From the NCBI GenBank assembly GCA_030612485.1, contig JAUWNS010000122.1, positions 1 through 7,037 of the forward strand: a stretch of DNA of 7,037 bases. The letters are read 5' to 3'. The notes under the pieces are model-generated. The model was given only the letters and a program-made list of their open reading frames with translations, searched no databases and was not told the origin of the DNA. Position numbers and translations under genes: made by a program. Positions 2,505-5,015 of this stretch are shown piece by piece (position 1 is the stretch's first letter; each line of letters starts with the position of its first letter). This DNA comes from Candidatus Bipolaricaulota bacterium (GTDB lineage: Bacteria; Bipolaricaulota; Bipolaricaulia; UBA7950; UBA9294).

Positions 2505-2712
2505 TCAAGAGGTGGGTATCTCGCCAAGCCGCAGAGACGCAAGAAACAGCGAAAGACACGGTCTGAGAAGCAAAGTGCGAGACAAACCAAGAATACTGTT
2601 GAGCTGTACCCCTTCGCGATCTTTGCGGCTTGAGTGAGTGTAACGAACGGGCGAGAGAAAAAAGATCGTATCTCGCAAAGGCGCAAAGACGCAGAGAACA
2701 GCGGAAGACCGG
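2505..2712 (+). repeat. Dispersed repeat copy B with 3' direct repeat
   Basis: The left end (2505-2536, TCAAGAG...AGCCGCAGAG) matches copy C at 27 of 32 positions. The right part (2617-2662, CGATCTTTGCG then GCTTGAGTGAG...GGGCGAGAG) matches C closely and A in reverse. Within the unit, CCAAGCCGCA near 2524 and TGCGGCTTGAG near 2624 are inverted relative to each other. The left motif also recurs as a direct repeat: 2517-2561 resembles 2669-2712 (TATCTCGC-AAG-CGCA-AGACGCA-AACAGCG-AAG), about 152 bp apart. The second one ends 4 bp before the ATG of a broken GxxExxY gene. No protein is convincingly encoded here. Confidence 0.7.
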
Positions 2713-2716
2713 AAAA

Positions 2717-2818
2717 ATGACTGAAAACGAGATAGGAAAGATTGTCGTTGATGCTGCAGTTTCGTCCCACCGAGATAGACCGCGGCTTTGGTTTTTACGT
2801 ACAGGAGTATCTCGATAG
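2717..2818 (+). pseudogene. Broken 5' end of a GxxExxY-family gene
   Basis: The first 15 residues, MTENEIGKIVVDAAV, match the typical N-terminus of GxxExxY proteins (Pfam PDDEXK_3, PD-(D/E)XK nuclease superfamily). After VSSHR the conserved HRELGPGLLE..Y core is lost and the frame stops at 2818 after 33 codons, against roughly 120-130 residues in the family. The ATG follows 4 bp after the direct-repeat half of copy B, the usual repeat-then-gene arrangement I associate with this family. The identification rests on a short segment and is from memory of the family. Confidence 0.55.
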
Positions 2819-2921
2819 GAGTGCCTCTTACAACCACCTCCTACCTGAAGTGTGAGGATACACAAAGTCAAACTTACCCACACCTGCCCGTCGGGGAAGC
2901 AGGCCGAATGAGGAAAAAGAC
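2819..2921. other. Spacer between GxxExxY relic and tRNA-Pro
   Basis: This spacer is non-coding as far as I can see. It contains a 21-bp palindrome at 2883-2903. On the minus strand, the tRNA 3' end is followed by GTCTTTTTCC, a short T run that could help termination although no separate hairpin precedes it. Confidence 0.4.
2883..2903. repeat. Palindrome, CCTGC...GCAGG (third variant)
   Basis: The arms CCTGC (2883-2887) and GCAGG (2899-2903) enclose a GC-rich centre that can also pair CCC with GGG. It resembles the two CCTG-type palindromes inside copy C but is more diverged. No T run follows on either strand, so it is not an obvious intrinsic terminator. Confidence 0.5.
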
Positions 2922-2998
2922 TGGTCGGGACGCCCGGATTTGAACCGGGGACCTCTTGCGCCCCATGCAAGCACGCTGCCAGACTGCGCCACGTCCCG
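2922..2998 (-). tRNA. tRNA-Pro, anticodon GGG
   Basis: The reverse complement folds as a full cloverleaf of 77 nt including an encoded CCA. The acceptor stem is CGGGACG paired with CGTCCCG. The D stem is GCGC/GCGT with one G-U pair. The anticodon stem is CTTGC/GCAAG around loop ATGGGGC, giving anticodon GGG (reads CCC and CCU). The variable loop is AGGTC, and the T arm is CCCGG-TTCAAAT-CCGGG. The discriminator base is A, followed by CCA at 2924-2922. It stands alone with its own promoter just upstream. Confidence 0.96.
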
Positions 2999-3009
2999 AG
3001 ATGCTTTTT

Positions 3010-3038
3010 ATAGTACCACTTCGCACGTCTGTTGACAA
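3010..3038 (-). promoter_or_regulatory. Sigma-70-type promoter of tRNA-Pro
   Basis: On the minus strand, -35 TTGTCA (3038-3033) and -10 TACTAT (3015-3010) are separated by exactly 17 bp. Transcription would start near 3003, leaving a leader of about 5 nt before the mature tRNA. The -35 overlaps the right-hand edge of a 17-bp direct repeat that borders the adjacent putative insertion. Confidence 0.75.
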
Positions 3039-3051
3039 ATGTACTTGTTCT
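3035..3051 (+). repeat. 17-bp direct repeat, left copy
   Basis: ACAAATGTACTTGTTCT; it matches 3554-3570 (ACAAATGCACTTGTTCT) at 16 of 17 positions in the same orientation. The two copies border the 502-bp block. Confidence 0.8.
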
Positions 3052-3123
3052 GGTTCCTCACGGTTAAGGCAAGGTAACCCAGAAAAAGACTCAAGAGATG
3101 AGTCTCTCGCTGAGCCGCAGAGG

Positions 3124-3153
3124 CCTGTCTGCCATCGTGTTCTGACAGGCAGG
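3124..3153. repeat. Palindrome in copy C, CCTGTCTG...CAGGCAGG
   Basis: The arms at 3124-3131 and 3146-3153 pair over 8 bp with one G-T wobble and a 14-base loop. It is followed by a run of G. It is related to the palindrome at 3223-3249 by its identical right arm. Confidence 0.65.
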
Positions 3154-3222
3154 GGGGGAGGGGAGACTCGGGGACACGGAGACGCGAAGAGTGAAGACCA
3201 ATATTCCTTAGCGATCTTTGCG

Positions 3223-3249
3223 CCTGCCTGTGCCGGTACGGCAGGCAGG
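3223..3249. repeat. 27-bp palindrome inserted in copy C
   Basis: Perfect 8-bp arms, CCTGCCTG (3223-3230) and CAGGCAGG (3242-3249), with an inner TGCCG/CGGCA that can form an alternative pairing. Copy B reads CTTTGCG directly into GCTTGAG at 2627/2628; copy C has exactly these 27 bp between the same two sequences. Confidence 0.75.
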
Positions 3250-3318
3250 GCTTGAGTGAGCGTAGCGAGCGGGCGAGAGAAAAAGCTTGTGTCTCTCGCA
3301 GAGGTACAGAATTGTTTT

Positions 3319-3345
3319 ACCACGAAGGACACGAAGAGCACGAAG
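3319..3345 (+). repeat. CACGAAG tandem repeat, left inverted copy
   Basis: Three CACGAAG heptamers with a 9-10-bp period (ACCACGAAGGACACGAAG...). Its reverse complement matches 3455-3481 at 23 of 27 positions; the four differences come from swapped spacer bases between the heptamers. Confidence 0.8.
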
Positions 3346-3348
3346 GGG

Positions 3349-3453
3349 TCAAAAGCACTGCTCATAGGGCGACACCGATAATTCTGGACCCAGTTCCCGG
3401 TGCACTTTAATCGCACAGTCAATTACTCGATTCGAAAGCTCATTGGATTCCAT
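3349..3453 (-). pseudogene. Broken 5' end of a second GxxExxY-family gene
   Basis: A 34-codon frame starting MESNELSNRVIDCAIKVHRE, followed by LGPELSVSPYEQCF and TGA. It aligns by eye with the GxxExxY (PDDEXK_3) N-terminus through VHRELGP and the YEQC stretch, but the signature Gly is Glu and the signature Glu is Val (GPELSVSPY instead of GPGLLESVY). The remaining three quarters of the gene are absent: the stop comes 3 bp before the left CACGAAG repeat. The start abuts the right CACGAAG repeat, and upstream in-frame codons simply read through that repeat as Arg-rich sequence. I take it to be a decayed fragment, not a small functional protein. Confidence 0.7.
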
Positions 3454-3454
3454 T

Positions 3455-3481
3455 CTTCGTGTCCTTCGTGCTCTTCGTGGT
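3455..3481 (-). repeat. CACGAAG tandem repeat, right inverted copy
   Basis: On the minus strand it reads ACCACGAAGAGCACGAAG then GACACGAAG, and it ends 1 bp before the ATG of the GxxExxY relic. With 3319-3345 it forms a 27-bp imperfect inverted pair enclosing the relic. Confidence 0.8.
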
Positions 3482-3553
3482 GAATTCTCTTTGGTCTCTG
3501 TCCCGTGCGAACCGAAATTAGAAGTTGCTACCCACTCGAAACGACAAGGAACC

Positions 3554-3570
3554 ACAAATGCACTTGTTCT
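3554..3570 (+). repeat. 17-bp direct repeat, right copy
   Basis: Partner of 3035-3051 (16 of 17 identical). It lies directly outside the AGGAACC end of the 502-bp block, about 70 bp before the ribonuclease start codon. Confidence 0.8.
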
Positions 3571-3585
3571 AAAGCCTGCGAATGT

Positions 3586-3609
3586 GTAAAAAGGGGCGGA
3601 CCCTTTTAC
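3586..3609 (+). other. Hairpin in ribonuclease leader, GTAAAA-GGG...CCC-TTTTAC
   Basis: AAAAGGG (3589-3595) and CCCTTTT (3601-3607) pair perfectly around a 5-base GCGGA loop. With one bulged A the stem extends to GTAAAA/TTTTAC. It is terminator-like in both directions but sits only about 20 bp before the Shine-Dalgarno, so it could instead be a leader hairpin or a REP-like repeat. The GC part is short (3 bp). Confidence 0.5.
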
Positions 3610-3626
3610 TGTATTCAAGCATTCGA

Positions 3627-3632
3627 AGGAGG
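3627..3632 (+). promoter_or_regulatory. Shine-Dalgarno of the ribonuclease gene
   Basis: AGGAGG, 6 bp before the ATG at 3639. It selects this start over an in-frame ATG at 3582, which would add 19 low-complexity residues read from the leader hairpin, and over an out-of-frame ATG at 3634. Confidence 0.85.
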
Positions 3633-3638
3633 AATGGG

Positions 3639-5015
3639 ATGAAGATTACCTTTTGTGGAGCGGCGGAGACGGTTACCGGCTCGTGTCACCTGGTGGAGAC
3701 TAACGGATTGAAGATCCTGCTCGATTGCGGCTTTTTCCAGGGATCGCGCGAGGTATCGTCTCGCAACCGGTCAGAATTTCCCTTTGACCCTGCGCAGATC
3801 GATTACGTCCTCCTCTCGCACGCCCACCTCGATCACGTCGGTAGGATTCCTCTCCTGACCAAGGAGGGATTTCACGGCGAGGTGATCACGACCCCGCCAA
3901 CAGCGGCGATCGCCAAGGTGATCCTCGCCGACTCCGCGCACATCCAGGTGGAGGAAGCGGCGTACAGAGCGCGTAAGGCCCGCCGCCGCGGGGAGGAGGC
4001 ACAGCCCCCTCTCTACGATATGGGAGACGTCCTCGACAGCCTCGATGCATTCCATCACCAGGTTCCCTACAATCAGCCGACCATCCTCAAAGACGGCGTG
4101 GAGGCGACCTTCCACGATGCGGGGCACATCCTCGGCTCCTCAATCATCGAGCTGAAAGCGGAGGGGAAGACCCTTCTCTTCAGCGGGGATTTGGGAAACC
4201 GGCACCAGCCGATCGTCCGCGATCCGAGCGACCCGCCGCACGCCGATATCGTTCTTGTAGAATCGACCTACGGAGACCGGTGTCATCGCAGCCTGGATGA
4301 CTCGGTCGACGAGTTGAAAGAAGCGGTGCACGCGGTCATTGGTCGGGGCGGGAACCTGCTGATCCCTTCCTTTGCACTTGAACGGACGCAGGAGGTGCTC
4401 TACGAGCTCTTCGCCATGTGGAAGAAGAAGGAGCTACCCAAGTGCAAGATCTTCCTTGACAGCCCGCTCGCTATCGCTACAACGCGGATCTTCGCCCGCT
4501 ACCCCGGCTACTTCGACAAGGAGGGGAAGGAGGTCTTTGCTCGTTCGCCGAACCCGTTTAGCTTCCCCTTGCTTCACTACACCCAGACGACGGAGGAATC
4601 GAAGTGGATCAACGCCATCCCTGAAGGGAACATCATCATCGCCGGGAGTGGGATGTGCACCGGCGGGCGGATAATCCATCACCTCCGGCACAACCTGTGG
4701 AAGGAGGAGGCAGGGGTGATCTTCGTCGGTTTCCAAGCGCGCGGGACGATCGGGCGACAGATCGTCGAAGGGGCCAAGGACGTAAATATCTATGGCGAGG
4801 AGACTGTGGTGCGGGCGCAACTCTGGACGGTCAACGGCTTCTCCGCCCACGCTGATCAGCCGATCCTCATCAACTGGTTGAAGAAGGCGGATGCCAAGAA
4901 AGTTTTCCTCGTGCACGGCGAAAAGGAATCGCTTGAGGGGTTCAAGGAGGCAATTGCGGAGGAGCTCGCAATCGATGCACATGTTGCCATGTGGAAGGAG
5001 AGCGTGGTTATATAG
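3639..5015 (+). CDS. Beta-CASP metallo-beta-lactamase-fold ribonuclease (COG1236/Ysh1-like)
   Basis: A complete 458-residue protein, normal length for bacterial and archaeal RNA-processing beta-CASP enzymes related to CPSF-73/Ysh1. The metallo-beta-lactamase part carries the zinc ligands HAHLDH (61-66), His163 in GHILGS and Asp184 in SGDLG. Beta-CASP motif A is Glu208 in VESTYGD; the beta-CASP insertion runs to about 390 and includes AGSGMCTGGRI (335-345); motif B is His404 in FSAHAD and motif C is His426 in LVHGE. All catalytic residues are present, so an active zinc-dependent endo- or exoribonuclease in the cytoplasm is likely; the RNA substrates cannot be inferred. The start is set by AGGAGG 6 bp upstream. 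The promoter probably lies in the 70 bp after the repeat island, with no convincing -35/-10 pair. Its 3' end overlaps the convergent phosphatase gene by 8 bp. Confidence 0.95.
   Translation: MKITFCGAAETVTGSCHLVETNGLKILLDCGFFQGSREVSSRNRSEFPFDPAQIDYVLLSHAHLDHVGRIPLLTKEGFHGEVITTPPTAAIAKVILADSAHIQVEEAAYRARKARRRGEEAQPPLYDMGDVLDSLDAFHHQVPYNQPTILKDGVEATFHDAGHILGSSIIELKAEGKTLLFSGDLGNRHQPIVRDPSDPPHADIVLVESTYGDRCHRSLDDSVDELKEAVHAVIGRGGNLLIPSFALERTQEVLYELFAMWKKKELPKCKIFLDSPLAIATTRIFARYPGYFDKEGKEVFARSPNPFSFPLLHYTQTTEESKWINAIPEGNIIIAGSGMCTGGRIIHHLRHNLWKEEAGVIFVGFQARGTIGRQIVEGAKDVNIYGEETVVRAQLWTVNGFSAHADQPILINWLKKADAKKVFLVHGEKESLEGFKEAIAEELAIDAHVAMWKESVVI

Follow-up and report, generated by a model that had tools for sequence, protein, structure and literature searches.

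A transposase-less block between tRNA-Pro and a beta-CASP ribonuclease-like gene in Candidatus Bipolaricaulota is very probably a hybrid of two ISL3-family elements

The window, as we call the whole 7,037-nucleotide stretch of DNA analyzed here, carries a 502-bp block (3052-3553) between a tRNA-Pro gene and a gene for a beta-CASP ribonuclease-like protein. The first bases of the block are GGTTCCT and the last are AGGAACC, and it is flanked by two copies of a 17-bp direct repeat that are identical at 16 of 17 positions and lie 519 bp apart, start to start. The features at the locus are listed here; L numbers denote loci and G numbers denote genomes.

2922..2998, minus strand: tRNA-Pro (GGG), left neighbor of the block, identified by ARAGORN and as Rfam RF00005
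3010..3038, minus strand: promoter-like site TTGTCA-17-TACTAT, its -35 box sharing 4 bases with the first direct repeat
3035..3051, plus strand: direct repeat copy 1, ACAAATGTACTTGTTCT
3052..3076, plus strand: left end of the block, ISL3-type group L (GGTTCCTCACGGTTAAGGCAAGGTA)
3124..3153, no strand: small palindrome CCTGTCTG...CAGGCAGG in the left half, with a similar one near the same place in L110
3223..3249, no strand: small palindrome CCTGCCTGTGCCGGTACGGCAGGCAGG, not in the sister repeat copy at 2611-2662 but occurring in L167
3316..3345, plus strand: left arm of an inner CACGAAG inverted repeat
3352..3501, minus strand: relic of a GxxExxY gene, the remainder of which is missing
3455..3484, plus strand: right arm of the inner CACGAAG inverted repeat
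3529..3553, minus strand: right end of the block, ISL3-type group R (outside in: GGTTCCTTGTCGTTTCGAGTGGGTA)
3554..3570, plus strand: direct repeat copy 2, ACAAATGCACTTGTTCT
3639..5015, plus strand: beta-CASP ribonuclease-like gene, right neighbor of the block (Beta-Casp, 6.8e-40; RMMBL, 2.3e-15)

An Rfam scan at gathering thresholds returned nothing besides the tRNA. The promoter-like site, one of which occurs in the real sequence against a mean of 0.4 across 50 shuffles, faces tRNA-Pro, is separated from the block by 13 bp, and probably belongs to that gene. The beta-CASP gene, whose start codon is the ATG at 3639, retains repeat copy 2 on its upstream side, and two further related genomes encode a beta-CASP protein at 79 to 80%. 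The 17-bp repeat may in this way let tRNA-Pro and the beta-CASP gene each retain their own upstream or promoter bases.

The initial annotation of this DNA had described an element with 7-bp inverted ends between 17-bp direct repeats, and both the ends and the repeats are present as it placed them. A chance repeat was ruled out, since, when 2600-4200 was resampled 200 times under a first-order Markov model, no 17-bp repeat matching at 16 or more of 17 positions turned up; the real segment has three spacings with such a repeat, the spacing of 519 among them. It had further found no transposase in the block and had read the content as older repeats and a gene relic. Indeed, the three listed open reading frames of at least 60 amino acids overlapping 3052-3553 gave no transposase match (Pfam, E value of 1), and both the repeats and the relic were recovered. 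The two small palindromes resemble CCTGCCTG...CAGGCAGG, similar ones occur in L104, L110, and L167, and comparison with the copy at 2611-2662 shows the palindrome at 3223-3249 to be cleanly inserted.

The ends of the block are genuine element ends, found repeatedly in relatives, and in this respect the proposal of an inserted element holds; the ends themselves are 25-bp ISL3-type ends belonging to two groups, and a 7-bp inverted-repeat element of unknown kind is ruled out on that ground. Group R ends start with GGCTCTTTGTCATTCCGAGTGGGTA or GGTTCCTTGTCGTTTCGAGTGGGTA, and group L ends start like GGTTCCTCACGGTTAAGGCAAGGTA. The two 25-bp ends of the block agree at 15 of 25 positions, the 7-bp match being only the outermost part. 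When six relatives were searched with 3035-3570, each genome gave from 1 to 77 matches, and parts of the block matched in all six, although in G001 by 29 bp only. Among the matches listed, 12 begin at window position 3051/3052 and 13 end at 3553/3554, in five of the six relatives, and none covers the whole block. Block homologs with ends lying elsewhere, which had been named as evidence against such an element, were not seen among the recurrent ends.

ISL3 transposases (PF01610) are encoded in four of these six genomes; a second set of 12 genomes, with G003 common to both sets, has them in 7. One locus, L111, has an intact 434-amino-acid ISL3 transposase between two group R ends, 1,369 bp overall, and the final 25 bp of the block match the left end of this element at all 25 positions. 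The right end of the block therefore matches the terminal repeat of an autonomous ISL3 element, as is characteristic of an ISL3-family MITE. The L111 element shows no recognizable target duplication. For group L, an end lies within some tens of bases after the C terminus of an ISL3 transposase in L116, L223, and L226, and no complete autonomous group L insertion sequence with both ends was found. Of 13 near genomes, one end-pattern scan detected ends in 9 and another in 8, with 0 matches for the reversed control. The corresponding scans of 100 genomes of the phylum detected ends in 13 (0 matches for the control) and 15 (1 match). Two further complete ISL3 genes are of other kinds: L216 has one R-like end at 5 mismatches and a 7-mismatch L match that falls within the gene, whereas at L217 neither an L nor an R end occurs at 7 or fewer mismatches. 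In G013, group R ends recur near contig starts, which suggests many near-identical copies that break the assembly.

The two groups are represented in the interior of the block as well as at its ends. We compared the halves with 40 elements, 15 of group L and 25 of group R, and the following parts were delimited.

3052..3310, plus strand: left half, homologous to group L, about 240-260 bp
3293..3553, plus strand: right half, homologous to group R, about 245-260 bp
3293..3310, plus strand: switch from L to R, with the motif CAGAGG common to both groups

From 3052/3055 to about 3122, the left half is 77 to 92% similar to 14 of the 15 L elements, and 3249-3310 is 94% similar to L099. In the right half, the stretch from 3293 to 3345-3348 is found at 81 to 89% in five R elements, and 3414-3553 is 82% similar to L096. 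Similarity to group L ends by 3310, and similarity to R elements that lack L-like inserts begins at 3293. Parts of the L-like middle (3251-3281) also occur within 8 of the 25 R elements (L091, L093, L158, L161, L164, L198, L209, and L213), in L198 reaching 3304, and because R elements with L-like inner segments exist, the crossover may lie to the left of 3293. The left end matches the group L pattern and the right end the group R pattern with 0 mismatches each, both patterns having been designed with the window's ends in view. The block is thus almost certainly a transposase-less hybrid of two ISL3-family elements, group L on the left and group R on the right, and we describe it as a product of ISL3 elements whose mode of movement is the usual one.

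Removal of the block and one repeat leaves 121 bp from tRNA-Pro to the ATG at 3639, in line with the compact spacer of about 120 bp that had been predicted. We identified 11 relatives (L131 to L141) that have the beta-CASP gene at 73 to 80% identity with the gene start inside the locus. tRNA-Pro lies directly upstream in five of them (L131, L132, L139, which equals L002, L140, which equals L005, and L141, which equals L006), and no tRNA was found upstream of the gene in the remaining six. A sixth, more distant relative with tRNA-Pro next to the beta-CASP gene is L142, at 69%. The spacers of these six measure 116 bp (L002 and L005), 114 bp (L006), 152 bp (L131 and L132), and 174 bp (L142), and the block is absent from all of them. 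That the block is an insertion is supported. Both 17-bp copies without the block, the other case named as contrary evidence, did not occur in the six same-neighbor relatives. Where the window reads TTG and then copy 1, L131 and L132 have one TTGACAAATGC; their C is also present in copy 2, and it is therefore copy 1 that carries the altered base. The part of the 17-mer reading ACAAATGC occurs once in the spacers of L131 and L132. The remainder of the 17-mer shows no conservation in these relatives, and so no empty site with a single full 17-mer was found among the six. In two other genomes, group L-type ends were seen 52 bp (L133, 425) and 58 bp (L134, 1442) upstream of the beta-CASP gene, the L134 end matching group L over its outer 15 bases only. 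The beta-CASP promoter region may have been hit repeatedly by insertions.

The length of the direct repeat was evaluated against other elements of the same groups. End pairs were defined as two ends matching the patterns at 6 or fewer mismatches and lying 80 to 2,000 bp apart, in the window and in loci L091 to L215. This gave 57 pairs, window included, some of which share an end; the reversed patterns gave 0 pairs at the same loci. Fifty-six of the 57 are L/L or R/R, and the window is the sole L/R pair. No second L/R hybrid within 2 kb was found when the ends listed for 100 phylum genomes at 2 or fewer mismatches were compared by their coordinates. Duplications were scored as matches minus twice the mismatches, and those scoring 5 or more were considered recognizable. 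By this measure, 30 of the 57 pairs have a recognizable duplication: 26 of 8 bp, two of 9 bp, one of 7 bp, from a pair that has one end in common with an 8-bp pair, and that of the window at 16/17. The other 27 pairs score below 5, 18 of them at 0 or lower, and the longest fits under the cutoff (L196, 8/10; L096, 9/13; L168, 8/14; L163, 9/15) look like chance. With control flanks taken from different elements, 46 of 3,192 combinations reach 5 and none reaches the window's 14.

Groups L and R therefore normally leave 8-bp duplications, and the initial annotation was right to regard 17 bp as long and anomalous. The window is the only one of the 57 pairs with a 17-bp repeat, and in this it departs from the 8-bp duplication of an ISL3-family MITE. 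Since both groups normally leave 8 bp, the 17-bp repeat, first read as a target duplication, is probably not the plain duplication of a single transposition. The octamers adjoining the block are CTTGTTCT on the left and ACAAATGC on the right; in the 17-mer they are separate, with one base between them. Because these flank octamers differ, a plain duplication of 8 bp in some other register is ruled out. A footprint model was likewise rejected, since two rounds of 8-bp insertion and excision would leave 8-mers in tandem, an arrangement that the 17 bp do not show. At another locus, L168 (G033:C12:71-378), considered with L169 and L167, the left-flank octamer is the target of one insertion and the right-flank octamer resembles the target of another; these mixed flanks reflect either recombination or an assembly fork.

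The octamers also bear on two further explanations of the repeat. It is barely credible that no transposon was involved and that the block arose by recombination or nuclease repair between preexisting 17-bp repeats, an option the initial annotation had raised. Seventeen base pairs is long for a target duplication, but the borders of the block match those of ISL3 elements with single-base precision, the ACAAATGC part is single in the L131 and L132 spacer, and no evidence was found for a separate nuclease. A single ISL3-type transposition of the hybrid, its 8-bp duplication lengthened by an earlier or later small duplication, is quite improbable. In favor of this explanation, the spacer and its surroundings are rich in small palindromes and repeats, but CTTGTTCT and ACAAATGC differ, so there is no 8-bp duplication in register, and we estimate a chance extension at 8 of 9 positions as about 1 in 10,000.

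The best account of the 17 bp is recombination between two alleles. Group L and group R elements would have inserted independently into one promoter region, generating two alleles, with the 8-bp CTTGTTCT as the L target, the 8-bp ACAAATGC as the R target, and one base between the targets. The group R parent element would once have carried a GxxExxY cargo gene. The alleles may then have recombined within the elements, at or near the common CAGAGG motif, to give a product with its left flank from the L allele and its right flank from the R allele. The stretch from the first target to the second would thereby be duplicated, and 8 + 1 + 8 gives 17 bp. We hold the combination of hybrid identity with this source of the 17 bp tentatively, at a confidence a little short of probable. 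The 1-base difference between the copies fits two alleles, L131 and L132 carrying the copy 2 base, and the ends in L133 and L134 favor repeated insertion upstream of the beta-CASP gene. Pairs without matching flanks, such as recombination between copies would leave, are also common (18 of 57), although decay or wrong pairing would have a like result.

Several points weigh against recombination between alleles. Two insertions 9 bp apart are a coincidence, the exact identity at the switch is short, and a join of two strains in assembly would look identical. No strain with the L insertion alone or the R insertion alone was found. A small target-preference matrix, built from 20 clean 8-bp duplications, is of no help to this model: the implied targets score -0.61 and -0.19, which is low, ranking 59 and 50 of the 114 8-mers in the native spacer, and the left-out scores of the matrix's own 20 duplications run from -1.47 to 3.05, three of them below 0. 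Models on one chromosome, with L and R elements side by side, were discarded because they give the wrong order or require two additional precise excisions.

The main rival to allele recombination is that a preformed L/R hybrid moved as a unit and that its ends were joined 17 bp apart and not 8, either by mixed L and R transposases or by one transposase acting on a foreign end. We consider this somewhat unlikely. It needs no two insertions at one place, and the sole mixed-end pair among the 57 is also the sole long duplication. GGTTCCT is present in both ends, which agree at 15 of 25 positions, and the R elements with L-like inner segments imply that hybrids form. Against it, none of the 29 other recognizable duplications exceeds 9 bp, and the ends listed for the 100 phylum genomes yielded no second hybrid. 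We know of no ISL3 case of mixed-end, wide-stagger transposition. A spacing of 17 bp is longer than 8 bp by about one helical turn. The specific proposal that transposases of the two groups pair one end each, and that target cuts made by these mixed complexes are spaced by 17 bp, is distinctly unlikely.

It is improbable that the block is an assembly artefact, in which an L-bearing and an R-bearing strain were joined at the common inner motif. In the G033 contig C12, the left octamer is that of C103 and the right one resembles the octamer in G032 C51; C12 and C103 both begin 70 bp before the element, which suggests that assemblies may fork in such repeats; the 1-base difference between the direct repeats also fits. 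Usual assembly word lengths, however, far exceed the exact motif shared at the switch, which speaks against such a join unless the parents resembled each other in that stretch more closely than the known copies do.

Returning to the proposed recombination, its group R parent is the presumed source of the cargo relic. The relic comprises the N-terminal 50 residues, matching the N terminus of L128 at 76% over 50 residues, that of L125 at 69% over 55, that of L127 at 68% over 34, and that of L126 at 52% over 33. The open reading frame at 3349-3618 has a weak match to PF13366 PDDEXK_3 (E value of 0.0012; 19.7 bits, below the cutoff of 22) and none at an E value of 0.001 in Pfam or NCBIfam; the relic does not reach the cutoff of the GxxExxY family (TIGR04256/PF13366) and has no NCBIfam match. 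A survey of GxxExxY genes or gene fragments in relatives gave 25 rows, merged to 20 places by removing repeats of the same gene or stretch. Six of the 20 lie between both ISL3-type ends at 6 or fewer mismatches per end, three of them with perfect 8-bp duplications. The units with both ends are as follows.

L231, 1356-1966
L125, 1397-1962
L128, 1394-1981
L235, 71-680
L240, 1393-2066
L244, 41-341

Four places have one plausible end (L232, L233, L239, and L242) and ten have none; L237, with an R end inside a weak gene match, was scored as having no end. Reversed patterns gave 0 pairs at the GxxExxY places. The unit in L231, 611 bp long with the 8-bp duplication TTACATTT, has a gene open across the whole family length. 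ISL3-type ends may explain part of the scattered distribution of the GxxExxY family. Mobile insertion cassettes (MICs) are transposase-less elements with an unrelated open reading frame between insertion sequence ends. They resemble the GxxExxY units found here, such as that in L231, whereas the block in the window differs from them in that its cargo is a relic and one of its ends comes from another group.

Elements of related kinds are known. The ISL3-family MITE of Microcystis is nonautonomous, with ends matched to ISL3 transposases and 8-nucleotide direct repeats (PMC11448079). Its ends begin GGCTCTTCG (PMC11448079), like many group R ends here; the block departs from it in combining two groups of ends and in the 17-bp length of its repeat. 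Tn7546 encodes an ISL3 transposase and has 11-bp ends starting GGGTCTTCG and an 8-bp duplication, which is 7 bp in one host (PMC9782665). Both published elements are in keeping with the 8-bp duplications found here. It differs from the block in carrying its own transposase together with mercury genes, and its description, as far as available to us, mentions no hybrid ends (PMC9782665). TIMEs are nonautonomous and mosaic like the block but belong to the Tn3 family (PMC4133298). ISL3-derived MITEs are thus known, and the combination of two-group ends with a 17-bp flanking repeat is a variant. We did not file the block as an ordinary ISL3 MITE because it lacks two defining features, ends of one group and an 8-bp duplication.

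These results connect the CACGAAG and CGCAGAG repeats dispersed in Ca. Bipolaricaulota, as well as part of its scattered GxxExxY genes, with ends of the ISL3 family and their 8-bp duplications. They also provide one clean case in which the length of a flanking repeat reveals a hybrid history. If recombination between alleles gives that length, such repeats would mark recombination between strains. If the paired ends instead set the length of the duplication, target repeats could serve as a record of hybrid transposition, and if mixed-end transposition occurs, elements with swapped ends and cargo could arise in one step.

A second stretch of the window, 2468-2861, may be the decayed remains of an older unit resembling group L; the left border, near 2468, was judged by eye. 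Its left part resembles L elements, and 2500-2536 and 2627-2681 match the block. It contains a fragment of a GxxExxY gene start, 62% over 21 amino acids to L126, and at 2861 it has a right end of group L type that is degenerate, with 7 mismatches.
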